This document shows positions 42,239 to 59,783 of a DNA stretch of 64,000 nucleotides, piece after piece. This stretch comes from Archangium violaceum (GTDB lineage: Bacteria > Myxococcota > Myxococcia > Myxococcales > Myxococcaceae): the NCBI RefSeq assembly GCF_016859125.1, contig NZ_CP069338.1, positions 9,861,501-9,925,500 on the forward strand. Reading direction: 5' to 3'. A program made the translations under genes and the position numbers. Within the stretch, counting starts at the first letter, position 1. Every line of letters begins with the position of its first letter. Below the pieces are notes generated by a model, which saw nothing but the letters and a program-made list of their open reading frames with translations, had not been told where the DNA came from and searched no databases.

Positions 42239-43111
42239 TCAGCGAGTCACGTGCGCGTAAACCCGCCGGGAGAGCTCCACGATGAGCGCGCGGGCCACCT
42301 TCTCGTCCGGGATGCCGCTGGTGAGCACCACGAGGACATAGGGCGAACGGCCCGACGGGTAGACGATGGCGGCGTCATGAAGGACACCGGAGATCTGCCC
42401 CGTCTTGTGCGCCACGGGAGTGCCCGCGGGCAGTCCCGCTGGGATCTCCTGGTTCAGCTCCTGGGCCAGCAGGATGGAGCGCATGGCCTTCGTGGAAGCG
42501 GGTGACGCGGCCTGCCCCCGCTCGATGGCGGCCATCACGGTGGCGAGATCCCTCGCAGTCGTGGTGTTGTTCAGACCCTTCTCGTACGCCTTCCCATCCT
42601 CCACACCGCGCAGGACGGCCATCTGGCGGGCCCCCAGCGAGCGCAGGGTCTTCGTGACGCGCTTCGGGTCCACCAGGGCGATGACCGTGTTGGTGGCCAG
42701 GTTGCTCGAGCGGGTGATCATCCGCTTGACGAGCTCGCGCACCGGCACCGGCTTGCCGAGCCGCTCGTAGAGGGCCGCGTCCTCGTCGTCCTTGGCCTCC
42801 AGGGAGTACGGCGAGCCATCCACGATGGACGCGAACTGGTTGGCCAGCGTCACCGGTTGGTCCAGCGACAGCTTGCCGGAATCGGCCTGTCGGAAGAGCT
42901 CGATCATCACCGGCACCTTCATGGTGCTGGCCGCATGGAAGGAGCGGTCGGCCTCCAGGAACAGTGAGTCCTTGGAATCACCGAGGTGCTGGAAGGCGAC
43001 CGCCACGGACGCGCCCTTCACCTGGGCGATGCGCTCCTGGAGGGAGGCGCGGAGGGTTTCGGTGCCAGACGGTGTCGCGGCGAGGAGGAGCAGGAGCGCG
43101 GTGGAGAACAT
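42239..43111 (-). CDS. Class A beta-lactamase
   Basis: A 290-residue serine beta-lactamase with a signal peptide (MFSTALLLLLAATPSG). The nucleophile motif STMK is at 62-65, the SDN motif reads SSN (135-137), the omega-loop general base is E177 in EKGLN, matching E166-x-x-LN, and HKTG is at 235-238. All catalytic residues are present apart from the SDN variant, so hydrolysis of penicillins is likely. It is 62 bases downstream of the Clp-like gene and close to a CreBC-like system that may induce it. Confidence 0.93.
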   Translation of the reverse strand: MFSTALLLLLAATPSGTETLRASLQERIAQVKGASVAVAFQHLGDSKDSLFLEADRSFHAASTMKVPVMIELFRQADSGKLSLDQPVTLANQFASIVDGSPYSLEAKDDEDAALYERLGKPVPVRELVKRMITRSSNLATNTVIALVDPKRVTKTLRSLGARQMAVLRGVEDGKAYEKGLNNTTTARDLATVMAAIERGQAASPASTKAMRSILLAQELNQEIPAGLPAGTPVAHKTGQISGVLHDAAIVYPSGRSPYVLVVLTSGIPDEKVARALIVELSRRVYAHVTR

Positions 43112-43147: not shown

Positions 43148-45448
43148 TCACCCATCGAGCACCGTCGCGAGCGCGCGGTACTCCGGCCTCAGCATCCGCT
43201 CGGCGGCACTGCCGGCCACGACCACCGGGAGCATCGCCCCCTCCAGAGCGGCGTCGGCCGAGAGCCGCACCGCGATGGGGGCCATCACCTTCGCCTCGAT
43301 GAGCCGCTTCAACGGCCGGGCTCCCAGTTTCGGCTCGTACCCGTTGCGGGCCAGCCAGGCTCGCGCGTCCGGCTCCACCACCAGCCGCAGCCTGCGCCGC
43401 AGGAGTCCCGCCCGTGACGCCGCCTTCTCCAGCTCCAGGTCCACGATGCGCAGCACGTCCGCCTCCGACAGGCGGCGGAACGGGATGACGTGATCGATGC
43501 GGTTGAACAGCTCCGGACGGAACGCCTGACGGATGGCCCGAAGGAAGTCCTCCGAGCCCCGCTCGGCACCGAAGCCCGCCGGTTCGGATGGCTCGACGCC
43601 GAGGTTGCTCGTCATGCAGACCACCGTCATCCGGAAGTCCACCAGCCGTCCCAGGCTGTCGGTGAGCCTCCCCTCCCCCAGGATGCCGAGCAGCAGATCG
43701 AATACATCCGGGTGGGCCTTCTCGAGCTCGTCGAAGAGGACGAGCGACATGGGCTGCTGGCGCACGCGCTCGGCGAGGCTGGTGATGCCGGGGCCCACCT
43801 CCATCAGCCGCTGGGCCGAGCCGGGCAGCATGTACTCGGACATGTCGATCCGGATCATCCGATCCTCGTTGCCAAAAAGCGTGCGCGCGAGCTGCTTGGA
43901 CAACTCCGTCTTCCCCACGCCCGTGGGCCCGGCGAAGAGCAACGTGCCCACGGGCTTGTCCGGATCATTGAGCCCGGCCTTGAACCGCGCGAGCACGCCC
44001 GCGGCCAGATCGCAGGCGCGCTCCTGACCGATGACACCCTGCCTCAGCTGCGCCGCGAGCGTGGCCTGCTCGGCGGGGATCTCATCGCTGATGAGCTGGA
44101 GTGGCAGTCCCGTGTAGCGCGCGTAGGCCTCGGAGACATCACGCGGATAGAGCGTGCGGGCCTTGCCCCGTTCCCCCTGCTGTTCGAGCCAGTCGAGGAA
44201 ACGGAAGGCCTTTCCCGGGAACAGACTGTCGCGCTGGAACGTCTCGAGGTGCCCCACGAGCTGTCTCAGGCCCAGGGCGTGGATGCTCACGCGGCTGCGC
44301 TTCGCCGACTGGTAGCGCAGCATCCACTCAGGGACCTGAGAGGCCGGTGGAGGCTCGATGCGGATGACGCGGAAGGGCCGCAGGGCCTCCGGGAAACGCC
44401 GCTGGCAGCGCTCGAGCTCGGCCTCGGTGCACTCGGCGATGAGGGAGATCTCCCCGCTCATCGCGGCGGGGAGGAGCAGATCTCCAATCGACGAGCCATC
44501 CGGCTGGGGCGCGAGGATCGACGTGAGCCGATCCACGTAGAGATAGTCGTTCTCATATGAGAGCGCGTCGACGATCTTCAGACAGCGCTCCTGCCACATG
44601 CCCAGGTACACCATGCCGGCCACGATGCGCTCGGCGCTGGTGCGCCAGATGTCCGGCAGACGCGTCTCCTTGTCCTCACGCCGCTGCTCGGCGATGAAAC
44701 GCGCGAGCATCAGCACCTGGCTCGTCTTGCCGACCCCTGGCCCTCCGACGAGCAACAGCGACTGCGGAGGCTGCCGCCGCGCATGGGCGAGCCAGGAGCG
44801 CATCGCCTCACCGTCGTACACCAGCGCCGGCTGCCTGCCGCCCAGGGCGCGAGAGGTCAGCTCCTCGCCGATCTGCTCCAGCACCTCGGGCCGTTGGACC
44901 TCGCGCTTGCCGCTCCGGGAGTCCCGCTGCAGCCCTCCCGGGTCCCAGCTGCACACGTACTCCGGGCCCTCATGGCGGAAGTCGTAGAGGCCCTTGGGCT
45001 TCTCCCCGAGCAGCACGGCGGTGAGCGCGTTCTGCAACACCTCGCGCGCGATGGAGAGATCCTCGATCACGAACGACCAGCCGAAGCGCGGCACCCGCAC
45101 GCGCCAGGCACCACTCTCCATCTTCCCGTAGACATACGTCAGCTTCAGCGGGACGAGCGCCTTGGCGATCACCGGCCGCTTCTTGTGCACGGTCTGCGGG
45201 TGGATCTCCACGGAGATGGTCCGGGCCTCCAGGGTCTCCTCCCACAGGAAGCGTTCGAGCGCGGAGGAATCCTGGAGCAGCAGTTGCCGCACCTGCATCT
45301 CGAGCAGGGCGTAGACCTCGGCCTCGCTGGTGCCGTAGGCGGAAGGCGGAGGCGCATCGAAGAAGCGGTCCCAGACGGGCAGGAGCTGCCCGGTGAGCCG
45401 GCCATCGTGGTGGGTCGTGAAGTAGACGCGAAGGCTCTTGTCACTCAT
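43148..45448 (-). CDS. ClpA/ClpB-like double AAA+ protein, third of three paralogues
   Basis: A 766-residue protein with a unique N-terminal domain (1-200), D1 with Walker A GPGVGKT (236-242) and a Clp-type AGMVYLGMWQER loop, and D2 with GPTGVGKT (507-514), LVLFDELEKAHP (569-580) and GRLTD. The D1 Walker B is poor (YLYVDRL). In D2 the pore loop that reads GYVGY in Clp proteins is VGPGITS, without an aromatic residue. It ends shortly after the D2 small domain (GYEPKLGARPLKRLIE). ATG 45448 overlaps the stop of its larger paralogue (ATGA). It probably forms part of a mixed or partner hexamer. Confidence 0.88.
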   Translation of the reverse strand: MSDKSLRVYFTTHHDGRLTGQLLPVWDRFFDAPPPSAYGTSEAEVYALLEMQVRQLLLQDSSALERFLWEETLEARTISVEIHPQTVHKKRPVIAKALVPLKLTYVYGKMESGAWRVRVPRFGWSFVIEDLSIAREVLQNALTAVLLGEKPKGLYDFRHEGPEYVCSWDPGGLQRDSRSGKREVQRPEVLEQIGEELTSRALGGRQPALVYDGEAMRSWLAHARRQPPQSLLLVGGPGVGKTSQVLMLARFIAEQRREDKETRLPDIWRTSAERIVAGMVYLGMWQERCLKIVDALSYENDYLYVDRLTSILAPQPDGSSIGDLLLPAAMSGEISLIAECTEAELERCQRRFPEALRPFRVIRIEPPPASQVPEWMLRYQSAKRSRVSIHALGLRQLVGHLETFQRDSLFPGKAFRFLDWLEQQGERGKARTLYPRDVSEAYARYTGLPLQLISDEIPAEQATLAAQLRQGVIGQERACDLAAGVLARFKAGLNDPDKPVGTLLFAGPTGVGKTELSKQLARTLFGNEDRMIRIDMSEYMLPGSAQRLMEVGPGITSLAERVRQQPMSLVLFDELEKAHPDVFDLLLGILGEGRLTDSLGRLVDFRMTVVCMTSNLGVEPSEPAGFGAERGSEDFLRAIRQAFRPELFNRIDHVIPFRRLSEADVLRIVDLELEKAASRAGLLRRRLRLVVEPDARAWLARNGYEPKLGARPLKRLIEAKVMAPIAVRLSADAALEGAMLPVVVAGSAAERMLRPEYRALATVLDG

Positions 45449-48400
45449 GGCGTCACCCGCTCGTTCTCGCGGCCGTCCACCGGGTTCTGGCTCATCCTCA
45501 ACCGCCACAGGGCTGGCAGGGCGTCCGCCGGGGTTCTCACGCGGTGGCCGCCGCTGTGGGTGAGCAGGTAGTCATCGAGCTCCAGCACCGAGATCGTCCC
45601 TGGCCGCGCGGGCGGCTCGAAGCGGTAGGCGCGAACGACGGGGGCCGCCGATTCGGGATCCTCCGGCAGCGGGCTCACCCCCTCCTGGCGCGCCTTGTGG
45701 AAGGCCTGGAGCTTCACGGCGTGCAACGCGAGCAACTCCGAGGGCTCGGGCGCGCTCGCCTCGTGGACACGGACCTTCACGATCTCCGGAAGCCGCCCCG
45801 AGGATTGCCAGACGTGCAGTCCCCCCTCCCCCTCGAAGAAGGGCCGCACACCGGGACCCACCAGCTTGATCGCGGCGTGCACCGGCTCCGCCATCGACGA
45901 GCCCAGGAACTCCCGGAGCCGCCGGGCGCCTCCCGTCACCACGGCGCCTCCGGGCAGGTGCACGGCGAAGGACTCGATGGCGCCTCGAGACCAGGCGTAG
46001 GCCGTGCAGAGCCACCGGGTGAGCAGGGAGCCGTTGGACGCGCCCTGCCGCCACTGCCCGAGCGGCAGCAGCTCCAGGGTGATCACGTGTTGGTCGGGGC
46101 TGGAGAGATTCCGGAGGATGCGTTGCAGGAAGTACACCTCGGCCAGCGCATCGAGCATCTGCTCGCGGGAGACGACCTTCACCGGCGCGAGCGCCCGCCG
46201 GTCGAAGATCCGGACGCGCTCCCCATCCCAGCTGTCCATCCTGGGCCGCTCCAGGATGCCGAAGCGCTCGACCTCGATCATCTCGCGCGCCTCCTCCTCG
46301 GGAGCGCGGGCGAAGGACTCGAGCTGGGAGGCGAACTCCTCCAGGTACATCCGCATCGCATCGAGCGTGTACAGCGACTCGGCATGCTCACGCTCGCCCG
46401 CGCGCAGCCGCTCGAGGTGGAAGCGGACCTGCTCGGACAGCGAACCGAGGGCGGCGCTCTCGCCCATCTCCCGTACCACCTCGCGCGCCTCGAGCATCCT
46501 CTCGCGCAGCCGCGCGACAGGGAGAGACAGGAGCGGCTCCAGCGCGAAACCCTCGACCACCGGCTCCCGGGGGATCAGCGCATCGGCCTGCACCTCGAAA
46601 CGACCGTCCCGGGTGTAGAGCTGGAACAGCCGCATCAGGGCCTGGGGTCCCTGGATGATGGCCTCGGAGAGAACCTGCCCGACCTTCTCCTCCAGGTAGC
46701 GCTTCAGCGGGCGCGCGCCCAGCTGCGGGTCGAAGGCCTCCTCGACGATGCGGCGTTTCACCGCGTCGTCCGCGGACACGAAGATGTGGCGCGAGGTCAA
46801 CCCGTGCCGCGACAGCAGCCGCGCGAGCTCCTTCTCGACGACCTTCTCGCCCACCTCCCGTGAGAGCGGCGCGAAGTGCACGATGTGATCGATGCGGTTG
46901 AAGAGCTCGGGCGGGAAGAACTCGCGCACGGCGCGGTCCGCGTCGAGCGCCAGGGCCCGCGAGTCCGGAGTCCCGATGCCCACCGCCGGCTTGCGCCGGG
47001 CCCCGAGGTTGCTCGTCATCACGATGACGGTATGCGTGAAATCCGCCGTCTCGCCCGAGGCGTCGGTCAGCCGGCCCTCGTCGAACGTCTGCAGGAGCAG
47101 GTTGAGCAGCGAGGAGTGCGCCTTCTCGATCTCATCGAACAGCACGAGCGAGAACGGCTGCTCGCGAATGAGGCGCGTGAGACGGCCCTCCGGCTGCCAG
47201 GCATCGCCAGTGAGCCGCGCGACGGCATCCGCCGTCTGGAACTCGGCCATGTCGAGCCGCACCATGCGCGAGGCATCGCCATACAGGTAGCTGGCCAGCG
47301 CGCGTGCGAGCTCGGTCTTCCCGGTACCCGTGGGACCGGTGAACAGATAGACACCATAGGGCCGCCGGGGATCGGTGAGCCCGGAGTGGATGCGCGCGAC
47401 GAGATCGCACGCCACCTCCACCGCGTCCGGTTGCCCCATGACCTTGCGCGAGAGGGCCTCGTGGACCTCTTCCGGTGCCAGCTTCTCCTGGGGGCGGAGC
47501 AGGAAATCCGGCAGACCCGTGCGGCGCGAGAGGTACTCGAAGAACTGCTCGATCCCGATGCGCTTCTCCGGAGCCCCCACGTCGGTGGCCAGCGCACGCA
47601 ACAGATCGAGCGCCTTGCCCGGCAGCGCGCTCCCGGAGAAGAGCGATTGGGCCTGCTCGAGCAGGGCCGGAAAGAGCGGGACCTCCCAGGAGACGCGGTG
47701 CTTGGATTCCAGCTCGCGCGACTCGTGCAGCAGCATGCGGAGCGTCTCGTCGGTGCGGGTGGGCCGCACGTGGAGCTGGGTGAAGAGCGCGGCGAAGGAC
47801 GGGGCATCCGATTCGAGCCGCTGGAGCTGCTCCGGTGTCACCGTGCCCACGAGAGTGATCTCCCCCCGCGCGAGCGCTCCCTGGAAGAAGAGCGCGAGGT
47901 TGGCGTCACTGTCGCGCGAGCGGCCGATGCGTCCGAAGGCATGTAGGTCCTCGATGAAGAGGATGCGCCGTCCGCCCTTCGCGTCCTCGAGCAGCTCGAG
48001 GCAGCGCTGCTCCCAGTCGCCGACGTAGCTCATGCCGGCGATGATCCGCTTGCCGGCGAGCATCCAGACCTCGGTCACCTTGTCCAGGTTGCGGTGGGTC
48101 TGGAAGCCCTCGGCCTCGAGCTGCTCGGCCACGAAGCGCTTGAGCAGGGTCCGCTTCCCACAACCCGGAGGCCCGACGAGCAGCACCGGCGTGCGCCGCT
48201 CGCCACTGAGCAGGAGCTGCAACTGCTCGCGGTAGGGGCTCCGTGCCATGCCGGTGTCGAGCGAGCCCTCCGCCGCCTGGAGGGTGAGGTTCGTTCCCAG
48301 GTTGCCCAGCACCCGGTTGCCGTTGCCCGACCTCTTCTTCTTCTTCCCCTTCTCCTTGCCGGGCCGGTCCTCGATCTCCAGATCGTCCCAGGGGCCGTTC

Positions 48401-48942
48401 TTCTTACCGAGCGTGTCGAGCAACGACTTCGGTCTGGCCACGAACGCGAGCGCCTTGAGGCTGTCCTTGCGGTTGGAGCGCAGCTCCTCGAGCTCGTAGG
48501 ACTCCAGCCCGGCCCAGGAGCGGGTGAAGAAGACCTTCGCCTGCTCCTCGAGGCTGGCGCCGGTATCGACCGGGAACCACTCGCCCTGGCGCGCGGGGTG
48601 GTACGCGATGGTCATGAGCTCGTCGCGCGTGCGCCAGCGCGGCTCGAGGATCAACGGGAAGAGCCCCGATAGCCGGGGGGTCTCGGCTCCGGCGCGCACG
48701 CGCTTGAAGTCGAGCTCGAGCTGCAACCGCTCCAGGCGGATGCCGCGAGGAAGCTGGAAGTACGAGAGCTCACGGACCGGCAGCTCGCCGATGATGTTCC
48801 GGAGGTCCTCCACGAGCTTCTGCTGGATCTTGACCGTGCTCCGGCCCTCGCGGTCGCGGGTATGGGGGCCGAGTGCGAGCGTGGTCCACCGGAAGCCACC
48901 GGAGGCATACCGGCTCTGGTAGACGGCGATGGTGAGGTTCAT
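45445..48942 (-). CDS. ClpB-like double AAA+ protein with release-factor-like C-terminus
   Basis: A 1165-residue protein. Residues 1-240 form a specific N-terminal domain ending in a basic linker. D1 has Walker A GPPGCGKR (257-264), AGMSYVGDWEQR and ILFIEDLH; D2 has GPTGTGKT (536-543), LVLFDEIEKAHS and GRLTD, but GYVGY is replaced by GDAWQPEG. After about residue 800 a coiled-coil region, then LELLPLGQWRQGASNGSLLT, KLVGPGVRPFFEGEGGLHVW and DYLLTHSGGHRVRTPADALP follow the order of class I release factors (PCRF domain, then GGQ-like loop), with GGH in place of GGQ. It is translationally coupled at both ends. Confidence 0.86.
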   Translation of the reverse strand: MNLTIAVYQSRYASGGFRWTTLALGPHTRDREGRSTVKIQQKLVEDLRNIIGELPVRELSYFQLPRGIRLERLQLELDFKRVRAGAETPRLSGLFPLILEPRWRTRDELMTIAYHPARQGEWFPVDTGASLEEQAKVFFTRSWAGLESYELEELRSNRKDSLKALAFVARPKSLLDTLGKKNGPWDDLEIEDRPGKEKGKKKKRSGNGNRVLGNLGTNLTLQAAEGSLDTGMARSPYREQLQLLLSGERRTPVLLVGPPGCGKRTLLKRFVAEQLEAEGFQTHRNLDKVTEVWMLAGKRIIAGMSYVGDWEQRCLELLEDAKGGRRILFIEDLHAFGRIGRSRDSDANLALFFQGALARGEITLVGTVTPEQLQRLESDAPSFAALFTQLHVRPTRTDETLRMLLHESRELESKHRVSWEVPLFPALLEQAQSLFSGSALPGKALDLLRALATDVGAPEKRIGIEQFFEYLSRRTGLPDFLLRPQEKLAPEEVHEALSRKVMGQPDAVEVACDLVARIHSGLTDPRRPYGVYLFTGPTGTGKTELARALASYLYGDASRMVRLDMAEFQTADAVARLTGDAWQPEGRLTRLIREQPFSLVLFDEIEKAHSSLLNLLLQTFDEGRLTDASGETADFTHTVIVMTSNLGARRKPAVGIGTPDSRALALDADRAVREFFPPELFNRIDHIVHFAPLSREVGEKVVEKELARLLSRHGLTSRHIFVSADDAVKRRIVEEAFDPQLGARPLKRYLEEKVGQVLSEAIIQGPQALMRLFQLYTRDGRFEVQADALIPREPVVEGFALEPLLSLPVARLRERMLEAREVVREMGESAALGSLSEQVRFHLERLRAGEREHAESLYTLDAMRMYLEEFASQLESFARAPEEEAREMIEVERFGILERPRMDSWDGERVRIFDRRALAPVKVVSREQMLDALAEVYFLQRILRNLSSPDQHVITLELLPLGQWRQGASNGSLLTRWLCTAYAWSRGAIESFAVHLPGGAVVTGGARRLREFLGSSMAEPVHAAIKLVGPGVRPFFEGEGGLHVWQSSGRLPEIVKVRVHEASAPEPSELLALHAVKLQAFHKARQEGVSPLPEDPESAAPVVRAYRFEPPARPGTISVLELDDYLLTHSGGHRVRTPADALPALWRLRMSQNPVDGRENERVTP

Positions 48943-51900
48943 CGGTTCGCGCCCCTGATCGTGTCGAGCACGAAGGAGAACCCACTCTCGGGATCGAAAC
49001 CGCCGGAGCGCTCGAGGTGGAGGATGTGTTCGAGGAGGATCAACTCGAGCTGCTGGAAGTAGCTCCCGCCGTCGAGCTGGAGCTTGCGCGCGCCATCGCA
49101 CAGCGCGAGCCAGCCCTCGGGGAGGTGCTCACGCTCGGCCGGCGTCAACCGGAGCTCCTTGAGGGGCGGTTGCGTTGGAGGGGCGATGGCGGGCAGCTCG
49201 AGCTCCTTCTCGGAGAGGATGGTGACCATCCCCACGGGCCTGACGGTGAGCAGGACCGGCGCTTCCTTCTCCGTGGGCGGGAAGCGATGCAACCCGGCCT
49301 CGAGCGCCAGGAAGGCTCCGGCATACGGACCACTGACCGACAGCAGGATCTCCCGGAAGGTGCGCGAGGGATTCATGAGCGCCTTCCGCAGCTGCTCGAG
49401 GCCGAGGACCTCGTCGGCCCACTTGCGCGTGCGGTCGCTGCCCTTGCTGGTGATGGAGGGGCGACCGCCGACCGACCAGCCGCGCCGCGGGAGATCCTCG
49501 AACAGCGGCAGGAGCCAGCGATCGAGCGCCCGCGTCTCCCCCGCTTCCTGGAGGATGAGCGTGATCCCATCCCGCCGGGGTTGCAGGGCGAGCAGCACCA
49601 AGGGCATCAATCGGCGGAGCGCCCGGATCTGCTCGTGGCCGTCGTCCACGAAAGGGGTGGCGTCCTGTTGCTCGAAGAGCGCCATCAGCGCCAGCTCCTC
49701 GGCGGCGAGCAGCGCCGAGCGCAGCCGTTGGCTCTCGGACCAGAGCTCCTCGAGCCGGCTGTGCTCGTGCCGCTGTTTCCCCACCGAGACAGCCTCGGGT
49801 CCGCGAGCATTTCGTTGGTCGCCCTGCGCGAGCTGGGCCACCAGGAAGCGGAGCTGTTCCGCGAGGTGCTCCACGGCGTCCAACCGGAAGAGCGTGTCGA
49901 TTTCCCGCCGTTTCTCCTGCAGGCCGTACACCAGGCGGAGCTGGTTCCGAGCCGATTTCGGACTCCCCCTGGACAGCTCCACCGAGAGCCCCTCCGGACG
50001 CGAGGAGATCTCCACGTGTCCCCCCTGGGCATCGGGCCCGGCCGCGGAGAGCACACGGGCGATGGGGACCACGAGCTGCTGATCCAGGTGCCTCCGCATG
50101 GCGCGAGCGCCATAGGCCTCCTGGTACCCCGACGCGGCGAGCGCGGTGGTGATCTCCGGCGGGACGTGGAGCGAGATACCGCGCTGGAACAACCCGCGCC
50201 GCTGCCCCAGCCTGTCCACCCCGAGTCGCGCCACCTCCGCCGCCTGCTCGGCCGTGAGCGGGTGGAAGGGAATGAGCTGATCGATGCGGTTGACGAACTC
50301 GGGCCGGAAGTGCCGGTGCACCTCGCGCAAGTAGTACGAGGAATCCTCCACCGCGGTGGCACCGATGCCCAGCGGAGCGCGGCGATGCGCCACCCCGAGG
50401 TTGCTCGTCATGATGATGAGGGCGTTGTGGAACCAGGCGGTCTGCCCCCGGGCATCGGTGAGTCGCCCTTCCCCACAGACCTGCAGGAGCAGATCGAAGA
50501 CGGCCGGGTGGGCCTTTTCGATCTCATCGAGCAGGAGCACACAGAAGGGCTGCTGGCGGACGCGGCGCGTGAGCAGCCCCTCGCCCTGATTGTTGCCTCG
50601 GATGAGACGCTCGGCGGCCCAGGCGTCCATGAATTCGCTCATGTCGAAGCGGAACATCCGCTCCGGCGAGCCGAAGAGGAACGTGGCGAGCAGCCGCGCG
50701 AGCTCCGTCTTCCCGACGCCGGTGGGGCCCACGAAGAGGAAGGTGGCCAGCGGCTTGCCCTGCGGCTGCAACCCCGCCTTGACCATGCACAGCGTCTCCA
50801 CGACGCGGCGAACCGCGAGCTCCTGGCCTACGAGCTGGCGGCGGAAGTGCGCCTCGACCTCGGCGGCGAGCAGCGCGCGGTCCTCGCGCAGCAGGAACTC
50901 GGGAACGCCGGTCTTGAGACTGAAGAGCGAATACACCCGCTCGCGAGTGAGGACGGGCACCCGGCCATCCCCCGTGCGCTCCTGCTGCAGGCCCGCGCGC
51001 ATCTCCTCGTACAAACGCACGGCCTTGCCCGGTAGCGCGCGGCTCGGCAGGTAGCGCTCGGCCAGGTCCACGAGGGGCTCCACCGCGTCATCGGCCAGCG
51101 TGGGCCTGGAGGGTTCCGCCTGCCGCTGCCAGGCCGCCCGGCTCCGGAGCGCCTCGCGGGTGTGCCGGGTCACCAGGGGCTCCAGGCGCACGCGCGCGAG
51201 CACGGCGAAGAGGCCCGGGTGCCGGTTCTCCAGCAGATCCAACGCATCGGGCGAGAGCTCGCCGAGGAAGCGCACCCTGCCCTCCTCCAGGAAGGGCTTC
51301 ATCGCGCCGGGGATGTCGATGGACTCCGTGGAGTGCTGCGCGAGCAGCTCGCCGAGGTTCTCGAAATAGAGGACGGCATCGAGCTCCTGCGCCGCGCGCA
51401 TCACGCGAAGCACGCGCTCCTGCCACTGGCCGAAGCCGGACATGCCGGCGATCAGCCGCGAGCCGCTCGTCGCGAACACCTGGCGGTGGCGGCCCGCCTT
51501 CCGTTCGGCACGGAGCCACGCGTGGAGCAACTCCGACTTGCCCACGAGCTCGGGGCCGACGAGCAGCACGCCCTGCCGCTTCTCCCCTCCGAGCAGGCCG
51601 GACAGCAGCGTGAGCTCGGTATCCCGGCCGACGAGCGGTGGCCCGTGCTTCGCCTCGTCACGGGTGTGCAAGGGGGTGGAGACGGAGAGGAGCACCTCGT
51701 TCGCCCGGTCGCGCTCGAGCTTCTCCTCCCACTTCTTCTTCGCCTGCCGGGCCTTGTCGCTCACGTCCAGACGCCGGAGCGTGAGCGGGAGGGTCTCGAG
51801 CGTCACCGATCTCGGAGGCAGCAGCCGCAGGTACTCGTGGGCGGTCGGCTCCTGCGCGGCGAGCAGCCGCTCCACGTCCGCGCGGACGGTCTCGCGGACG

Positions 51901-52292
51901 TCCTGCTTCGGGCCCACATAGACCGTGTGATCCAGCGCGGGAACGAAGACCCAGGTCTCCTCCGGGAGCGGGACGACGACCGCGGCCAGCTCCAGGGTGG
52001 TCGGCTTGACGAGACGCTTGGGCAGATCGGCGCGCGGCGCCAGGATCTCCAGCGTCTCGAGCCGCACCTGCGCGGGGAGGGAGAACCGGGCGAGCTCCTC
52101 GGGCTCCACCTTGGACAGATGCTCCTCGAGGAACAGCCGCTGCTCCGACAGGCAGGCCTCGAGGCTGTGTGCGTGGCTCGTCAGGGTGGGCGCGGCTACG
52201 GGAAACACCTGATAGTCACCGCTCCAGAGCTGCTGGCATAGAAGCGGCGTGGAGAAATCGAGGGTCCCGGGCGCGGCATCGGAAGGGGCCAT
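48939..52292 (-). CDS. ClpB-like double AAA+ protein with release-factor-like C-terminus, first of three
   Basis: A 1117-residue protein. N-terminal domain 1-220; D1 with degenerate Walker A GPELVGKS (246-253), AGMSGFGQWQER and a weak Walker B (VLYFENLGEL); D2 with GPTGVGKT (522-529), VLLLDEIEKAHP, GRLTD and arginine-finger region FRPEFVNRID. The D2 pore loop reads GNNQGEG in place of GYVGY. Residues 780-1030 resemble a release-factor coiled coil and PCRF domain (ILLSVSGPYAGAFLALEAG, then LHRFPP, like the SGxYAxGxLxxExGxHR segment of RF2). No GGQ is seen. It is the first gene of the overlapping unit. Confidence 0.86.
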   Translation of the reverse strand: MAPSDAAPGTLDFSTPLLCQQLWSGDYQVFPVAAPTLTSHAHSLEACLSEQRLFLEEHLSKVEPEELARFSLPAQVRLETLEILAPRADLPKRLVKPTTLELAAVVVPLPEETWVFVPALDHTVYVGPKQDVRETVRADVERLLAAQEPTAHEYLRLLPPRSVTLETLPLTLRRLDVSDKARQAKKKWEEKLERDRANEVLLSVSTPLHTRDEAKHGPPLVGRDTELTLLSGLLGGEKRQGVLLVGPELVGKSELLHAWLRAERKAGRHRQVFATSGSRLIAGMSGFGQWQERVLRVMRAAQELDAVLYFENLGELLAQHSTESIDIPGAMKPFLEEGRVRFLGELSPDALDLLENRHPGLFAVLARVRLEPLVTRHTREALRSRAAWQRQAEPSRPTLADDAVEPLVDLAERYLPSRALPGKAVRLYEEMRAGLQQERTGDGRVPVLTRERVYSLFSLKTGVPEFLLREDRALLAAEVEAHFRRQLVGQELAVRRVVETLCMVKAGLQPQGKPLATFLFVGPTGVGKTELARLLATFLFGSPERMFRFDMSEFMDAWAAERLIRGNNQGEGLLTRRVRQQPFCVLLLDEIEKAHPAVFDLLLQVCGEGRLTDARGQTAWFHNALIIMTSNLGVAHRRAPLGIGATAVEDSSYYLREVHRHFRPEFVNRIDQLIPFHPLTAEQAAEVARLGVDRLGQRRGLFQRGISLHVPPEITTALAASGYQEAYGARAMRRHLDQQLVVPIARVLSAAGPDAQGGHVEISSRPEGLSVELSRGSPKSARNQLRLVYGLQEKRREIDTLFRLDAVEHLAEQLRFLVAQLAQGDQRNARGPEAVSVGKQRHEHSRLEELWSESQRLRSALLAAEELALMALFEQQDATPFVDDGHEQIRALRRLMPLVLLALQPRRDGITLILQEAGETRALDRWLLPLFEDLPRRGWSVGGRPSITSKGSDRTRKWADEVLGLEQLRKALMNPSRTFREILLSVSGPYAGAFLALEAGLHRFPPTEKEAPVLLTVRPVGMVTILSEKELELPAIAPPTQPPLKELRLTPAEREHLPEGWLALCDGARKLQLDGGSYFQQLELILLEHILHLERSGGFDPESGFSFVLDTIRGANR

Positions 52293-52367: not shown

Positions 52368-53471
52368 ATGGCGCACGTGAACCCCATCCTCTTCCAGTCC
52401 GCGACCGAGCGGCGCCTGCGCGACGAGCTGCTCGCCGACAAGGACATCCAACGGGCACTGCGTCACCTGGACGAGCACCCGGCCGGGTCTGCCTCCCTCG
52501 CGAGGCGCAGACGGCTGCTGTCGGACGCGTTCCGGCTGACGCACTCGACGGCACCGGGGATCATGGGGGCGCTGGCCTCGTGCCAGGAGACGCTCGGTTA
52601 CGAGGGAACAGTGGAGGTGTTCGTCCATCCGGAGCCGGGACTCCGGGTCGCGGCGGTGCATCGCCCTCCGGAGACCCCCGCCATCGTCCTCTCCGCGAGG
52701 CTGCTCGAGGTGCTGCCGGAGGCCGAGCTGCGCTTCGTCCTCGGACACGAGCTCGGCCACCTCGCCTTCGGGCACTTCGCCCTCCCGCTGCCGGCCACGG
52801 CCCTGGCGGGGGAAGGCTCGGGGCGGATCGTCCGGAACACCACGGCCCTCCGGCTGTACCAGTGGAGCCGGGCCGCGGAGAGCAGCGCGGACCGCGCGGG
52901 ACTGCTGTGCGCCAGGGACGCCGAGGCCGCCGCGAGCGCCCTGTTCAAGCTGGCGAGCGGTATGACCTCCGCGCCCGTGAAGTCCGAGCTGCGGGCCCAT
53001 ACACGCCAGGTCGATGCGCTGCTGTCCGGAGCCTCGGCTCGGGAGAAACCCCGCGAGGACGAGGAGACGCTCGGCCTCTTCAGCACCCACGCTTTCGGTC
53101 CGCCACGGCTGCGCGGTATCGCGGCATTCGCCAGGACGAGGACCTTCCTGAGGATCGCGGGCCGCTACGCGAGCGAGGAGGGGCACCTGGACGAGGATGC
53201 AGACCGCCTCCTGGCGGATGACCTCCGGGAGCTGGAGCCTCCCTCGCAGCAGGAGGAGATGCCCGCGCATGCCGAGTTGCCGCGACGGGCCCAGGAGACG
53301 ACCCTCTCCGAGAGGGCCCGGCTGGTGCAGCACCTCACCCTGGTGGCGGCCCCGGATGGAAACGTGTCCGACGAGGGATTCCTGGAGCTGCGGCGTGTGG
53401 CCGAAGCGCTCTCCGTGCCCGCCTGGCTCGTGGACGAGGCGCTCCGAGCCGCCTCACACCCTCTGGACTGA
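52368..53471 (+). CDS. M48-like zinc metallopeptidase with TerB-like tail
   Basis: A 367-residue protein with no signal peptide or membrane helix. HELGH at 127-131 and the second-helix motif RAAESSADRAGLL (E171, D175) match the M48 Ste24/HtpX fold, though without the usual membrane segments. After about residue 300 a helical unit VQHLTLVAAPDGNVSDEGFL is followed by a conserved Leu/Ala pattern like TerB. AAGGAGG precedes ATG 52368. It is divergent from the three AAA+ genes across 75 bases and starts the plus-strand series, 24 bases before the kinase gene. A cytosolic protease working with the AAA+ proteins is possible. Confidence 0.82.
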   Translation: MAHVNPILFQSATERRLRDELLADKDIQRALRHLDEHPAGSASLARRRRLLSDAFRLTHSTAPGIMGALASCQETLGYEGTVEVFVHPEPGLRVAAVHRPPETPAIVLSARLLEVLPEAELRFVLGHELGHLAFGHFALPLPATALAGEGSGRIVRNTTALRLYQWSRAAESSADRAGLLCARDAEAAASALFKLASGMTSAPVKSELRAHTRQVDALLSGASAREKPREDEETLGLFSTHAFGPPRLRGIAAFARTRTFLRIAGRYASEEGHLDEDADRLLADDLRELEPPSQQEEMPAHAELPRRAQETTLSERARLVQHLTLVAAPDGNVSDEGFLELRRVAEALSVPAWLVDEALRAASHPLD

Positions 53472-53495
53472 CCGGACTCCGCTATCGTTTGGATC

Positions 53496-56400
53496 ATGGG
53501 GCTTCCTGGTGACCTGATCGGCCCGTACCGGCTGAGGCATTTGATTGGCAGCGGCGGCATGGGACGAGTCTTCGCCGCCGTCCACGAACGTATGGAGCAG
53601 GAGGTCGCGCTCAAGCTCCTCTCGCCGGATGCGGCGCGGGACCCCCAGCTCGTCGCCCGATTCATTCAGGAGGCGCGCGCCCTGGCGCGACTCCAGCATC
53701 CCGGTGTCGTGCGCGTTCATCAATGCGACCGGCTCGATGACGGCACGGTCTACCTCGCGATGGAGCTCCTCGCCGGTCTCTCCCTTCGCGACTGGATGCG
53801 AAGCCACCCAGGCCCCGTACCGCTCGAGACCGCGTTGGCCATCGGCTGGCAGATCGCGGACGTGATGGCCGACATTCACGCGAAAGGGATCGTCCATCGG
53901 GATCTGAAGCCCGAAAACGTCTTCCTGTGCCCCGACGAGAGCATCGCACCAGGCCACCGGATCAAGCTCCTGGATTTCGGTATCGCCAAGGTGCCACCAG
54001 CCGCGACTGGAGCGCATGGGGATACGCAGGTGCAGACCGTGGCGCCCATCTTCCTCGGTACCGCCGCGTACATGGCACCCGAACAATGTCGGAACGCGGC
54101 GGATATCGACGGCCGCGCGGATGTGTATGCGTTGGGAGTGTTGCTCTACGAGCTCCTCGCCGGGCACCTTCCGTTCATCTCCGATACGTCCATCGAAATG
54201 CTCTCGCTCCACCTGCATGCGGAACCACCGCCTCTGCAGTCCGTCGTGCCAGCGCTCCCGGGGGCACTCTCCACCTTCATCACCACCGCCATGCTCGCCA
54301 AGGCGCCCTCGGAGCGGCCGACGATGCTCCAGTGCCGGGACAAGCTGGGCCAGCTCTGGGAGGGCGGGCAGGACGAGTGCCCCCTCCCAGGACTCGCGCC
54401 CTTCACGGAGGCCCAGGTCGAGCTGTTCTTCGGGCGCAAGGCGGAGATCGACGAGTTGTTGAGACAGCTCGAGAGGGCACGTACGGGCGAGCGGCGCTGG
54501 ATTCAGATCGAAGGGCCGAGTGGCATCGGAAAGTCCTCACTGGTCCAGGCAGGGCTCCTGCCCCGATTGAAGGAGAACCGTCCCCAGGACGCCCCGCTGT
54601 GGCGAATCGCCAGCATGCGACCCTCCGACGAGCCACTGCGCGGTCTCGCACTGGCGCTCGTCGCGGCCTATACGGGCACGGGCCTCGAACAGACCCCAGA
54701 GGAGCTCGAGCACGCGTTCCGTACGGATCCCGGAGCCCTCCGGACCCTGGTGACGGAGCACATGCCTCCAGGCTGTTGCTTGCTGCTGGTCCTCGAACAG
54801 ATGGAGGAACTCTTCACGATTGGCGCGGCGGATTGCCCCCGGTTGGACGAGCTCGTGGCCACCGCGCTCGCCGCGACCGGCTCCCCCCTGCGGCTGCTCA
54901 CGACCCTGCGCAGCGACTTCATCCACTGTCTGGAGCGGATGCCCCTCCTCGCGCGCCAGCTCAACGAGGCCACGCGCCATCACTTGAGCCCGATGGATCA
55001 GGAAGCACTCACGCAGGTGATCCAGGGAATGGCCAGGCGTGCGGGGCTGCGGCTCTCCGAGGGCCTTCCAGCCCGGATGGTCCAGGACGTCAGGAACGAA
55101 GGGAGTCAGCTTCCGCTGCTCGGCCATGCGCTCCGTGGGCTCTGGTCGCTGCGCAGCGGCTCGCTCCTGACGCACGAACGCTATGAACAGCTCGGCGGTG
55201 TCGGAGGCGCGCTGGCGCGGCAGGCCGAGCAACTCCTGGACGGCCTGGGTGAAGAGGGGCGAGAGCGCGCGAAGTGGATCCTCCTGGAGCTCGTGCAGGT
55301 GGGCCGGGGTGTCCCCGATACCCGCCGTCCGCGAACCAGGCAGGAGGTGGTCGTGGCGGCGGGCGGCGGTGAACGTGCCGAGCAGGTATTGATGTGGCTG
55401 TCCGGGATGAGGACCGGGGCTCCGGACGACGAGGCTCCGGGGCTGCGGCTCGTCGTGCTCTCCGGAGGACCGGAGCCCACGCAGCAACGTGTCGACCTGG
55501 TCCACGAGACCCTGCTCCAGAAGGTGCCATCCCTCGCGGAGTGGATCGAGCGTGAGCGCGTGCCGCTCGAGCGGCATGCCGCTCTGGAGGCGGCCGCGCA
55601 CGAGTGGGAACAGGCGGAGTGTCGGGCCGATTGGCTGCCTTCGGGCACCCTGCTGGCGCACTATCGTGGGCACACGGGCCCCACACGCCCGCGCGATCAG
55701 TTCACGCGGATGACGAGTGACCGCGCGATGCGCTTCCTCGATGCCGCGCAACGGCTCGACCGGCGGCGCACCTGGATCAAACGCACGCTGATGCTCGCAT
55801 CGGCCGTGGCCATGGCGGCGATCGTGCTCTTCGCGGTTCGCGCCGAGGAAGCACGACGGCGGGCCGAGGCAAGTGAGGCTCGTGCCCTCCAGGAGCAACA
55901 GAACGTCAAGGAGCTCCTCCAGCAGCTCTCCGCAGTCATGAGTGATTTCGTCTCGAATGCGGATTGGGAGCTCGGCAGGCTCTCGGGCACGCTCGACATC
56001 CGGCGGAAGCTGCTGCGCGCCTACGAGGAGAGGCTGGCCTCGTTCCAGGAACAGCATCGCCAGAGGCCCGAGATACGTGGGACGATCATTGAAACCAAAC
56101 ACCGGCTTGGGGACCTCGCGTTCCTCGATGGTTCGCTCGATGAGGCGGATACCCACCTGAAGGGTGCATGGGAGGAGCTTCACCGGAACCTCGAGCTCCA
56201 GCCCGAGGACAAGTTCCTCACGTTCCTGCTGGGACTGAATCACTCGAAGCGCGGGAAGGTCGCACTGGCGCTCGGCCACCTGGATGAGGCCGAGCGCCAT
56301 TTCGGTGAAGCCCTCACGCTCTTCGAACGCCCACCCGTGGAGGGCAACGCCGACGAGATCAGGGACTACAGGCGGACCCTCGCGACGAGCCTGTCCGAGC

Positions 56401-56954
56401 AGGCGGACCTGGAGCTCGAGAGGGGTCGAACAGCGGCTGCGGCCTCATTGAATGAGCGAGCCCTCCTGCTCTTCGAACATAATCGCGACAAGGATTACGA
56501 TCGCGCCCTGCTGGCAGAAGCGCTCTGCCAGGTCGGGGAAATACACCGCCGGGGCGGAGACCTGAAGACAGCGAGCATCGCTCTCGCGCAGGCGCTGGAG
56601 CTCGAAGATTCACTCGTCCGCTCCAACCCGGGGAACGAATACTTCCGGTGGATTCTGGCCCGGATTCACATCGCACTCGCGGAACTCCGGGTCACGGAGG
56701 GCCGACTCGGCTCCGCGGACCTCCACTACCACGAGGCGCAAGACCTGGGACGAGCGCTGCGCAAGGGAGAGCCAGAAAACAAGCGCTACGCGCTGGCCCT
56801 GAGCCAGGGCCTGTACGGGGACGAACACCTGGCGCACACCCGAGGCGACCCGACCCACGCCAGACACGTACGCGATGAGCGATGTGCGCTGGTGAACGAA
56901 TTCCTGAGCAAGGACCCGCGGGACGTCCGCTTCCAGCGGCTGGCCTGCCACTGA
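53496..56954 (+). CDS. Ser/Thr kinase fused to STAND-type NTPase and TPR region
   Basis: A 1152-residue protein. Residues 11-275 form an active-looking Hanks kinase (GSGGMGRV, K40, HRDLKPENVF, DFGIAKV, APEQ). A STAND-like NTPase follows (FFGRKAEIDELLRQLE, Walker A GPSGIGKSS about 340-348, RWIQIEG). Near 762-784 there is one membrane helix (TLMLASAVAMAAIVLFAV), then tetratricopeptide-like helices to the C-terminus (FLDGSLDEADTHLKGAW, LALGHLDEAERHFGEALTLF). This order is typical of myxobacterial and cyanobacterial signalling STANDs. It is between the M48 gene and the SAVED gene. Ligand and substrates are unknown. Confidence 0.86.
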   Translation: MGLPGDLIGPYRLRHLIGSGGMGRVFAAVHERMEQEVALKLLSPDAARDPQLVARFIQEARALARLQHPGVVRVHQCDRLDDGTVYLAMELLAGLSLRDWMRSHPGPVPLETALAIGWQIADVMADIHAKGIVHRDLKPENVFLCPDESIAPGHRIKLLDFGIAKVPPAATGAHGDTQVQTVAPIFLGTAAYMAPEQCRNAADIDGRADVYALGVLLYELLAGHLPFISDTSIEMLSLHLHAEPPPLQSVVPALPGALSTFITTAMLAKAPSERPTMLQCRDKLGQLWEGGQDECPLPGLAPFTEAQVELFFGRKAEIDELLRQLERARTGERRWIQIEGPSGIGKSSLVQAGLLPRLKENRPQDAPLWRIASMRPSDEPLRGLALALVAAYTGTGLEQTPEELEHAFRTDPGALRTLVTEHMPPGCCLLLVLEQMEELFTIGAADCPRLDELVATALAATGSPLRLLTTLRSDFIHCLERMPLLARQLNEATRHHLSPMDQEALTQVIQGMARRAGLRLSEGLPARMVQDVRNEGSQLPLLGHALRGLWSLRSGSLLTHERYEQLGGVGGALARQAEQLLDGLGEEGRERAKWILLELVQVGRGVPDTRRPRTRQEVVVAAGGGERAEQVLMWLSGMRTGAPDDEAPGLRLVVLSGGPEPTQQRVDLVHETLLQKVPSLAEWIERERVPLERHAALEAAAHEWEQAECRADWLPSGTLLAHYRGHTGPTRPRDQFTRMTSDRAMRFLDAAQRLDRRRTWIKRTLMLASAVAMAAIVLFAVRAEEARRRAEASEARALQEQQNVKELLQQLSAVMSDFVSNADWELGRLSGTLDIRRKLLRAYEERLASFQEQHRQRPEIRGTIIETKHRLGDLAFLDGSLDEADTHLKGAWEELHRNLELQPEDKFLTFLLGLNHSKRGKVALALGHLDEAERHFGEALTLFERPPVEGNADEIRDYRRTLATSLSEQADLELERGRTAAAASLNERALLLFEHNRDKDYDRALLAEALCQVGEIHRRGGDLKTASIALAQALELEDSLVRSNPGNEYFRWILARIHIALAELRVTEGRLGSADLHYHEAQDLGRALRKGEPENKRYALALSQGLYGDEHLAHTRGDPTHARHVRDERCALVNEFLSKDPRDVRFQRLACH

Positions 56955-57055
56955 AGCCGAGCCCGAAAAAATAAAAAGAAATCGGTCGCGCTCGATCCGT
57001 GCGCGGATGGCGTCCATGAAGATCGGGATCCCTCTTCCTCCTGGACCAGAATTCC

Positions 57056-58861
57056 ATGAACGAGCCGAACGACACACCCCGGAGCGGGTTGATCCTCCTG
57101 TCCCAACCCGAGCAGATCGGCATCTCGCCGAGGGACATGACCGGCGCGCTGCCGGATGCCTACAAGCTCCTACCCCGGCTGGATGTCGAACTGGACATGG
57201 CGGAGATCGCCAGGCAGGCGGTCCACTCTCGTGATTGGGGCAAGGCCCAGCGCACGCTTGAGGAGTTGTTCCGCACGAAGCTCGCGCCGCTCCGGGAGAA
57301 ACACCCCGACTATCGGCTCGTGTACTTCGGTTCCTCGCCCGTCCCACTCGCGCTCTACCTTGGTTTCCTGCTCTACACCTGGCAGCAGGTGGAGGTCATC
57401 CCGCACCACCATGCGCGACGAGCCTGGGGATGGTTCCCCGAGCCCGGAAGAGCCCCTGCCCGCCTCGCGCGGGTACAACTGCCGGATTACAGGGATCAGT
57501 CATCGGGTGTCGCCGTCATCCGGGTCTCGACGTCACACCGCGTCGATCCCCATATGACGCAGCGGGTGGTTTCCAATCCCCTGTTGGAGCTCGACATCGC
57601 GCTGGAGTCGCCCGCCGAAGACGCCTTTACCCGCCAGGAGGAGATGCAGGAGGTCGCCCGCGCGTTCCGGGAGGCCCTGAATGTCATCGGCACCCGGTTC
57701 CCGGGCATCCAGCGCGTCCACCTGTTCGCCTCGGTCCAACCGGGAATGGCGCTCCTGCTCGGCGCGCAGATCAACAAGACGATGCACCCACCCGTGCAGA
57801 CGTACCAGTACGCGCGGCACGTGGAGAACGAGCCGTACCACCTGCGTGCGTTGCTCGTGAACGCCCCGAGCCACCTCGAACCCTTGCCGCTGACCGAGGA
57901 AGAGCAATCCCGGGCCGACGGTGATCGCGGGAACCTGTTGGAAGACCTCGAACAGATGAAGGAGCTTGCCCGGCGGGAGCAGGAGAACCCGGGACGAAGC
58001 TGGATCGCGGGGCTCCTGCCGGGGACCGAGGCACTTCTGGAGTTCTCCGCCCATTGGCTGCACCTGTCAGCCCTGTACGAGACACCGTTGTCCGAGACGA
58101 CGGTGGAGGTGGGGCTACGAGCCGTGGAGGACAGCTTCCGCCTCGATTCTTCCAGCAACGCCTGGCAGATCGACGCGCACTGGCTGGCACGACTCGCGCG
58201 GAGGATTCCGGAAGCGGCGAGGCGGCGCCGCGCCCTGCGCATGCTCGTCTTTCACGAGCTGGCCCATCGTGGGCCTCAGGCACTCACCAGCTGGTCGAGC
58301 AAGGAGATCGGGCGTTTCCCCAAGGTGCTCGAGGAGATCGACTATCACGCGGACGTCTGGGCGATGTTGCACGAGTACGCGCTCACGAAGACGCGGGCTC
58401 CGGATGAGGTCGCCGATCCACGGAAGTTCTTCGTGGACCTGGTCCGGATCGCGACCGAGACCATGTGGGCCTTCGACGACGATGGCCCTCCCCTGCAGGA
58501 GATCCAGACCCGCCGCCTCAACCGGTACCTCATCTGGTACTGGCAGTACCTGCTCCTGGAGCGCGGCGCCGGACGGGGACAGAAGACGACGCTCGAGTCC
58601 ATCCTCGCACGCCTCGCGCAGCGCCCCCTCATCGAGCTGGCGGGCCCCACCGTGATTGCCCACGACGAGCGCGTCTTCTTCGCGCTCGATACCGCGCGGG
58701 TGAACGTTCCCGAGCTCGGCGTCTATCACGAGGGCCGCCTTCATCGGCACGGAACGCGCCCCGACTTCAACATCAACGCGCTCCTCGAGAGAGTACGCGC
58801 CCGCGACGGGAAGGGAATCCTCGAGGTCCTGCGCTCGGCCTTCACCCTGACGCTGCACTGA
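57056..58861 (+). CDS. SAVED-domain protein fused to an HExxH zincin-like domain (CBASS-like effector)
   Basis: A 601-residue soluble protein. Residues 85-255 match SAVED, the cyclic-oligonucleotide sensor domain of CBASS and CRISPR-linked effectors: YFGSSPVPLALYLGFLLY, VIPHHHARRAWGWFPEP, VIRVSTSHRVDP and VHLFASVQPGMALLLGAQIN. The C-terminal half carries LVFHELAHRG (HELAH 400-404) and EEIDYHADVWAML (about 426-438), a zincin-like pair in which E426/E427, H431 or D433 could supply the third ligand. Known SAVED effectors are mostly nucleases, so this looks like a cyclic-nucleotide-activated protease. It is 10 bases upstream of the CD-NTase gene. Confidence 0.83.
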   Translation: MNEPNDTPRSGLILLSQPEQIGISPRDMTGALPDAYKLLPRLDVELDMAEIARQAVHSRDWGKAQRTLEELFRTKLAPLREKHPDYRLVYFGSSPVPLALYLGFLLYTWQQVEVIPHHHARRAWGWFPEPGRAPARLARVQLPDYRDQSSGVAVIRVSTSHRVDPHMTQRVVSNPLLELDIALESPAEDAFTRQEEMQEVARAFREALNVIGTRFPGIQRVHLFASVQPGMALLLGAQINKTMHPPVQTYQYARHVENEPYHLRALLVNAPSHLEPLPLTEEEQSRADGDRGNLLEDLEQMKELARREQENPGRSWIAGLLPGTEALLEFSAHWLHLSALYETPLSETTVEVGLRAVEDSFRLDSSSNAWQIDAHWLARLARRIPEAARRRRALRMLVFHELAHRGPQALTSWSSKEIGRFPKVLEEIDYHADVWAMLHEYALTKTRAPDEVADPRKFFVDLVRIATETMWAFDDDGPPLQEIQTRRLNRYLIWYWQYLLLERGAGRGQKTTLESILARLAQRPLIELAGPTVIAHDERVFFALDTARVNVPELGVYHEGRLHRHGTRPDFNINALLERVRARDGKGILEVLRSAFTLTLH

Positions 58862-58871
58862 AAGAGATCAC

Positions 58872-59783
58872 ATGTCATTCCAGCCGATGTTCCGGCAGTT
58901 CCACGAAATCATTCAGCTGAAACGCCACGGAGAAAGCGCGGAGCTCCTCGAGAAGAGCCAACGCATCTTCAAACGGCTCCGGGACAACCTGCCGGTCTCC
59001 TTCCAACCGTTCTATCAGGGCAGCTACGTCATGGGGACGGGCATCAAGCCTCTCAACGGGCATTACGACCTCGACGTGGGAATCGAACTCGACCTCGACC
59101 CTCGGGCGAACGATCCCGTCAAGGTCAAGGAGTGGGTCTACAAGGCTGTGAGCGAGCACACCGCCAGGGTGGAATGGCGCCGCCCGTGCATCACGGTGTA
59201 CTACCAGGAGGCGCGCGAGGTCATCTATCACGTCGACCTGGCCATCCTGGCGAAGGCTCCGTCCTCCGGCTCGCTGTACCTGGCGCTCGGTAAGCAGAAC
59301 GCGCTCCCGGAGCAGCGCAAGTGGCAGCCCGATGATCGCAAGGGCTTCATGGAAGCCCTCGAGAGAAGATTCACGGGTGAGGACGCGGGACAGTTCTGCC
59401 GGGTCATCCGCTACCTGAAGCGATGGAAGGACGAGCACTTCCCCATAGAGGGGAAAGCGGCACCCACAGGGCTCGCGCTCACCGTCGCCGCGTACCATTG
59501 GTTCCAGCCCGTGAAGACAGGCTGGCATCAGAGTGCCCAGTACGATGATCTCGCGGCGACCACCGCCCTGGTGCGAGCGATGCGCCAACACTTCGGCTCG
59601 CGATTGTCTCTGCGCTTTCCCACCGCGCCCCAGGATGACGTCTTCGCACGGATGAACGATCAGCAGATGAAGGAGTTCCGTGAGCGCCTCGATAAACTCA
59701 GTGGATGGTTGGAGGAGGCAGCGAGGACCCAATCCGCCGCCCCGCTCCAGCGCGCATTCGGCGCACAATTCCCATCGCGCTAG
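58872..59783 (+). CDS. CD-NTase (CBASS cyclic-oligonucleotide synthase)
   Basis: A 303-residue nucleotidyltransferase of the SMODS/cGAS-DncV-like superfamily. The GS motif is YQGSYVMGTG (G50-S51), the metal-binding pair is D66 and D68 in HYDLDVGIEL, and the third acidic residue is D122 in YHVDLAIL. RVIRYLKRWKDEHFP and PTGLALTVAAYHWF belong to the helical OAS1_C-like part. All catalytic residues are intact. It should make a cyclic di- or oligonucleotide on infection, sensed by the SAVED protein encoded just upstream. No E1/E2/JAB or HORMA/Trip13 genes are next to it, so the layout is a minimal, type I-like CBASS. The product cannot be read from sequence. Confidence 0.88.
   Translation: MSFQPMFRQFHEIIQLKRHGESAELLEKSQRIFKRLRDNLPVSFQPFYQGSYVMGTGIKPLNGHYDLDVGIELDLDPRANDPVKVKEWVYKAVSEHTARVEWRRPCITVYYQEAREVIYHVDLAILAKAPSSGSLYLALGKQNALPEQRKWQPDDRKGFMEALERRFTGEDAGQFCRVIRYLKRWKDEHFPIEGKAAPTGLALTVAAYHWFQPVKTGWHQSAQYDDLAATTALVRAMRQHFGSRLSLRFPTAPQDDVFARMNDQQMKEFRERLDKLSGWLEEAARTQSAAPLQRAFGAQFPSR

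Follow-up and report, generated by a model that had tools for sequence, protein, structure and literature searches.

Both release factors and Clp unfoldases are ancient, and both have been studied in depth. A locus in the soil bacterium Archangium violaceum raises the question of why two Clp-type proteins carry long C-terminal regions that look like release factors, and whether such regions could place an unfoldase on the ribosome. The window, the whole stretch of DNA that was analysed, comprises 64,000 nt (positions 9,861,501-9,925,500 of contig NZ_CP069338.1, assembly GCF_016859125.1); the host genome, of the genus Archangium, is 12.7 Mb. An earlier note on this DNA had proposed, from the letters alone, that the C-terminal regions follow class I release factors and that one of them holds a segment resembling the catalytic loop. 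Based on our analysis of sequence profiles, predicted folds and related loci in other genomes, the first proposal is well founded and the second is not.

The A-B-C cassette and its surroundings

Three genes, here called A, B and C, each encode two Clp-type AAA+ modules. A long stretch beyond the D2 lid, about 350 C-terminal residues, is found in A and B but not in C. The features, in window positions, are as follows.

48939..52292, minus strand: gene A (1117 aa), with an N-terminal domain, Clp-type AAA+ modules D1 and D2, and a release-factor-like tail without the GGQ domain
51693..52292, minus strand: A N-terminal domain (residues 1-200), with no Clp_N match and no relative among PDB sequences
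50973..51692, minus strand: A AAA+ D1 (residues ~201-440), Walker A GPELVGKS
49998..50885, minus strand: A AAA+ D2 and D2-small (residues ~470-765), intact Walker A and B, GYVG pore loop absent
50340-50372, minus strand: A tripeptide LGI at the ClpP-loop position, inside D2
49593..49961, minus strand: A helical region, equivalent of release factor domain 1 by fold comparison (residues ~778-900)
48993..49580, minus strand: A equivalent of release factor superdomain 2/4 by fold and alignment (residues ~905-1100)
49284..49334, minus strand: A core motif SGPYAGAFLALEAGLHR (A 987-1003), RF2 counterpart LKAExGVHR
45445..48942, minus strand: gene B (1165 aa), with an N-terminal domain, Clp-type AAA+ modules D1 and D2, and a release-factor-like tail without the GGQ domain
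46618..47505, minus strand: B AAA+ D2 and D2-small, with the tripeptide VGI at the ClpP-loop position
46111..46539, minus strand: B helical region, release factor domain 1-like by fold comparison (residues ~802-944)
45463..46101, minus strand: B superdomain 2/4-like region by fold comparison (residues ~948-1160)
45808-45861, minus strand: B motif VGPGVRPFFEGEGGLHVW (B 1028-1045), within the 2/4-like region
45517..45579, minus strand: B segment LDDYLLTHSGGHRVRTPADAL (B 1122-1142), equivalent of the domain-4 hairpin, with GGH at 45544-45552
43148..45448, minus strand: gene C (766 aa), Clp-type paralogue without a tail, third member of the cassette

The stop codon of A and the start codon of B overlap in an ATGA, as do the stop of B and the start of C, indicating that the cassette is translationally coupled. 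The first ~200 residues of A, B and C form an N-terminal domain that the three have in common but in divergent form. This domain could have a role in substrate binding; it has no match in Pfam, and a search of PDB sequences gave no meaningful relative.

A class A-type beta-lactamase-like gene (42239-43111, minus strand) lies 37 bases downstream of C, also in A. lansinium (L037), and comparison of neighbourhoods indicates that it is no general partner of the cassette. Divergent from the cassette is a CBASS-type defence locus (52368-59780, plus strand) with genes for an M48-type peptidase, a Ser/Thr kinase-nSTAND1 protein (PADLOC kinase C3a189, 512 bits), a SAVED 'peptidase' CBASS effector (736 bits) and a DncV-like cyclase. 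Across cassettes, no conserved operon partners beyond A-B-C were found. Further neighbour clusters were discarded, as most of them came from antisense ORF artefacts or from synteny within one lineage.

Release-factor ancestry of the A and B tails

The strings on which the earlier note relied, SGPYAGAFLALEAGLHR in A and VGPGVRPFFEGEGGLHVW and LDDYLLTHSGGHRVRTPADAL in B, are present in the translations. The searches that could have returned no profile match or an unrelated fold returned release factors. Profile and fold both show that the two larger Clp paralogues carry C-terminal regions of release-factor origin. PCRF was the top family of all Pfam among the A tails, matching 10 of 22 members (best E 1.9e-4), and NCBIfam prfB matched five of the 22 (best 2e-7). 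A related Clp protein from another Myxococcota genome (L050) scored above the Pfam curated cut-off (27.2 versus 24 bits). The window's own A tail reached only E 0.026 against Pfam PCRF, and B tails had zero PCRF matches in the Pfam search. Given such weak single-sequence scores, profiles or folds are needed to place the tails of the window.

When profiles were compared with hhalign, the A tails scored 54 against RF1/RF2 and 55 against D, a second Clp-RF2 fusion described below, while the B tails scored 36 and 46, respectively. The maxima over 60 column shuffles were 19 for A with RF1/RF2, 22 for B with RF1/RF2 and 19 for B with D; over all controls the best shuffled target did not exceed 22 and the best reversed target reached 21. 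Six-frame searches of 30 whole genomes with the A-tail profile (E<=0.01) recovered only A, B, D and ORFs the size of RF2 (356-414 aa), and in two planctomycetes the next match was a 374-aa RF2 carrying GGQ. Against PDB sequences, RF1 and RF2 made up the first 23 of 27 matches of the A-tail profile (E 0.002). The B-tail profile found there a single weak match, to an unrelated protein. The case for the B tail is therefore carried by the fold match and by similarity to A and D.

AlphaFold models of the tails, for which the alignments comprised only the window and the fetched loci, had a pLDDT of 87.8 and pTM of 0.83 for A and a pLDDT of 81.0 and pTM of 0.79 for B. With Foldseek against the PDB, the best 47 matches of the A tail (best E 7.6e-8) and the best 50 of the B tail (best E 8.7e-7) were all release factors, comprising RF1, RF2, mtRF and PrfH. 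The VIA-align Z was 13.0 for A and 12.7 for B. The first row that was not a release factor appeared at Z 5.4 for the B tail, and some helical proteins reached Z 10-11 with the A tail via the coil alone. The weight for A is therefore carried by superdomain 2/4, which aligns with RF1 over about 145-160 residues at an rmsd of 3-4. As modelled, the fold of the A and B tails is that of release factor domain 1 and superdomain 2/4.

A helical coil together with a short GLHR-like motif might resemble a release factor by chance, and the window sequences taken singly, with their weak or missing Pfam PCRF matches, would allow it. However, the fold matches span both release-factor domains, the profile scores lie far above those of the shuffled and reversed controls, and the whole-genome profile search was clean. 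Chance similarity was rejected on the fold and these controls and is hardly credible, and we regard the release-factor ancestry of both tails as secure.

Of the known release factors, RF2 (prfB; PF03462 and PF00472) has the same helical domain 1, superdomain 2/4 and LxxExGxHR core, along with a C-terminal '(I)RxY...D.RTG' segment seen in planctomycete A tails and in D. Unlike RF2, proteins A, B and D are fused to a Clp ATPase, have no GGQ domain and have a shortened PxT/SPF loop. The part needed for peptide release is absent from the A and B tails: in a search of the host genome, PF00472 (the GGQ domain) was undetectable in A, B and D and was found only in RF1, RF2 and one 129-aa ORF. By alignment, the GGQ domain has been cut out of A and is degraded in D, the stop-codon loop (PxT/SPF) is shortened or unrelated in both, and the helix start of GGxEA type and the R(I/R)HTS stretch have been shortened or lost. 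Stop-codon reading is not expected of the A and B tails.

The GGH of B (B 1131-1133), previously read as an altered GGQ loop, lies in the wrong part of the fold. Based on alignment and secondary structure, its segment forms the final hairpin ahead of the C-terminal helix and matches 'KDLRTGVETGNV..VLDG' of RF2, the domain-4 hairpin. Orthologues of B have GSH, GTH, GNH, ETT, DTV and others in place of GGH. With this variability and a position outside the GGQ region, GGH was dismissed as a GGQ relic.

Protein D and the spread of the fusions

Searching the host genome in six frames for PCRF revealed D (E 4e-19), a Clp-like ORF of 953 aa (G000:C1:280549-283374; L091 6050-8875) whose likely start gives 942 aa. 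D matches NCBIfam prfB at 6.5e-26 and resembles RF2 more than RF1. It shows the combination of Clp and release factor in a less degraded form, and suggests a straightforward evolution in which an RF2 gene joined a Clp gene and the catalytic domain was then lost. Of 195 genomes of the phylum, 84 have D, and almost all of these belong to the host's myxobacterial family, across which D is single copy and slowly evolving. A D-like protein of 970 aa was found in a Sandaracinaceae genome. In two genomes (G144, G150) D is apparently split into two ORFs. The neighbourhood of D has no conserved neighbours, with tRNA genes nearby in two genomes only, and no translation gene was consistently linked to D or to the cassette.

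Triples of A, B and C were found in Myxococcota and Planctomycetota. Among 199 genomes sampled from the planctomycete phylum, 10 carried A-type tails, as did 4 of 199 from the acidobacterial phylum; both counts include the centre genomes. A maximum-likelihood tree built on the AAA+ core places together the B proteins of both phyla (support 93/90) and also the planctomycete C proteins with the myxobacterial C proteins of type I (95/96), while deeper A branches are unresolved. As the B and C lineages are common to both phyla, the triplication is old, with the tail kept in two of the three members.

The tails differ in how fast they evolve. Within the genus, identity is 64-75% for the A tail, 92-94% for the D tail and 94-95% for RF2; the rate of the A tail is about five times that of RF2 in the same genus, with a within-genus omega of 0.31-0.67. 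Five of 22 A tails end in a hairpin like the L7/L12 C-terminal domain (Pfam, best E 1.1e-7; L040, L041, L043, L044 and L051, identified by reading the sequences). In L021 a similar hairpin is apparently inserted mid-tail.

The Clp motor and possible roles of the tails

The D2 Walker A and B motifs and the ClpB_D2-small lid are intact; several members, judging by sequence, have a degenerate Walker B in D1. At the position of the ClpP-docking loop is a [hydrophobic]-G-[F/I/L/Y] tripeptide, of the type [LIV]G[FL], in 29 of 30 A, 22 of 25 B, 18 of 20 C and all five D proteins, as counted with a lenient pattern between the D2 sensor strand and RPEF.NR; the host's own ClpB-like protein is without it. 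ClpA, ClpC and ClpX bind ClpP at this position, and the A-B-C machine is perhaps a partner of ClpP as well. The aromatic GYVG pore loop of D2, kept in all three ordinary Clps of the host genome, was seen in one of 25 B proteins and in none of the 30 A, 20 C and five D proteins, making the usual threading mechanism uncertain. None of the named equivalogs (ClpA, ClpB, ClpG, ClpK, TssH) fits; for example, the ClpA score is 300 bits against a cut-off of 993. Like ClpA, ClpC and ClpB (Hsp100), these proteins have two AAA+ modules, intact D2 Walker motifs, the D2-small lid and a ClpP-loop-like tripeptide. However, A, B and C are without Clp_N and the D2 GYVG, fall far under the ClpA and ClpB family cut-offs, and form a three-paralogue operon with a release-factor tail.

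Our best explanation, evenly balanced between belief and doubt, is a heteromeric A-B-C Clp ATPase docked on the ribosome via an RF2-derived body. Under this scenario, A, B and C would co-assemble into a single Clp/Hsp100-type ATPase, to which A and B would each bring an RF2-type domain 1 and superdomain 2/4, stripped of the GGQ domain and with a shorter stop-codon loop. The release-factor body would dock the motor at a vacant or stalled A site or at the GTPase-associated centre, neither reading a stop codon nor hydrolysing peptidyl-tRNA. ATP-driven pulling may then unfold or extract a nascent chain or another protein bound to the ribosome and perhaps pass it into ClpP. In its full form, which we offer tentatively and at somewhat less than an even chance, the proposal is of an undescribed ribosome-directed AAA+ machine, a three-paralogue Clp whose GGQ-less RF2 body would serve as a codon-independent A-site anchor for extracting or degrading proteins on ribosomes that are stalled or idle; D would then be a second version, a core one in myxobacteria.

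Domain 1 and superdomain 2/4 of RF2 are the part that contacts the decoding site and the GTPase centre. This, the conservation of the D tail at the level of RF2 and the L7/L12 match in five A tails favour the ribosome. However, the A tail evolves fast for a surface that contacts rRNA, which counts against docking, and we put docking itself at roughly an even chance. Taken together with the loss of recognition motifs and the lack of linkage to translation genes, the fast A tail makes reuse in assembly or as an adaptor the main rival. The release-factor body would then act off ribosomes as a protein-protein module, in A-B-C ring assembly or in substrate or adaptor binding, within a general or specialised Clp unfoldase; the loss of the GGQ domain along with the decoding motifs, and tails on two of three co-travelling paralogues, are as expected. 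The constancy of the D tail speaks against such a module. So does the L7/L12 match, which adds another ribosomal resemblance, even if unrelated proteins can have L12-like hairpins too. Reuse off ribosomes is a real possibility, though on the doubtful side.

If the tail still binds ribosomes, bacteria would have a built-in link from the A site to an unfolding or degrading motor, a link that eukaryotic quality control is so far known to make with separate proteins. If the tail no longer binds them, it would be a clear case of a translation factor that shed its catalytic domain and was taken into another machine as a structural component. Culturable myxobacteria allow either outcome to be tested.

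Other release-factor folds have been repurposed from normal termination, as in PrfH, which is among the structural matches, and ArfB and their kin. PrfH, ArfB and related rescue factors keep the GGQ catalytic domain, whereas the A and B tails have none and are fused to a motor. A release-factor-like domain is also coupled to an AAA+ unfoldase in Vms1/ANKZF1 and Cdc48 of eukaryotic ribosome-associated quality control, and Vms1-clade proteins interact with CDC48 (PMC6514570). However, the release-factor fold there is the unrelated archaeo-eukaryotic one and the two are separate polypeptides, whereas the A and B tails are part of one chain. The Clp-release-factor fusion would be a one-polypeptide analogue of the Vms1-Cdc48 pairing, with a common logic that we only infer. 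In the open-access literature we found no paper describing Clp and a release factor in one protein, although domain databases may list the architecture. A survey of release-factor evolution makes no mention of Clp or PCRF (PMC6514570), and one of AAA+ conflict systems leaves release factors unmentioned (PMC7159879). The component families are known; the Clp fusion and the GGQ-less tail are, as far as we found, new to us.

Lastly, the cassette may be a device for defence or translation shut-off, with a release-factor-like dummy filling the A site during infection or stress. In the host genome it adjoins the CBASS-type locus, with its cyclase and SAVED peptidase effector, and the nSTAND1 kinase. 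However, defence genes are not kept beside distant cassettes, and PADLOC gives only generic AAA+ similarity (DolB, PDC-M37B) with no specific model. D, unlike most defence genes, is a slowly evolving single-copy gene across the family. A defensive role is improbable in our view.
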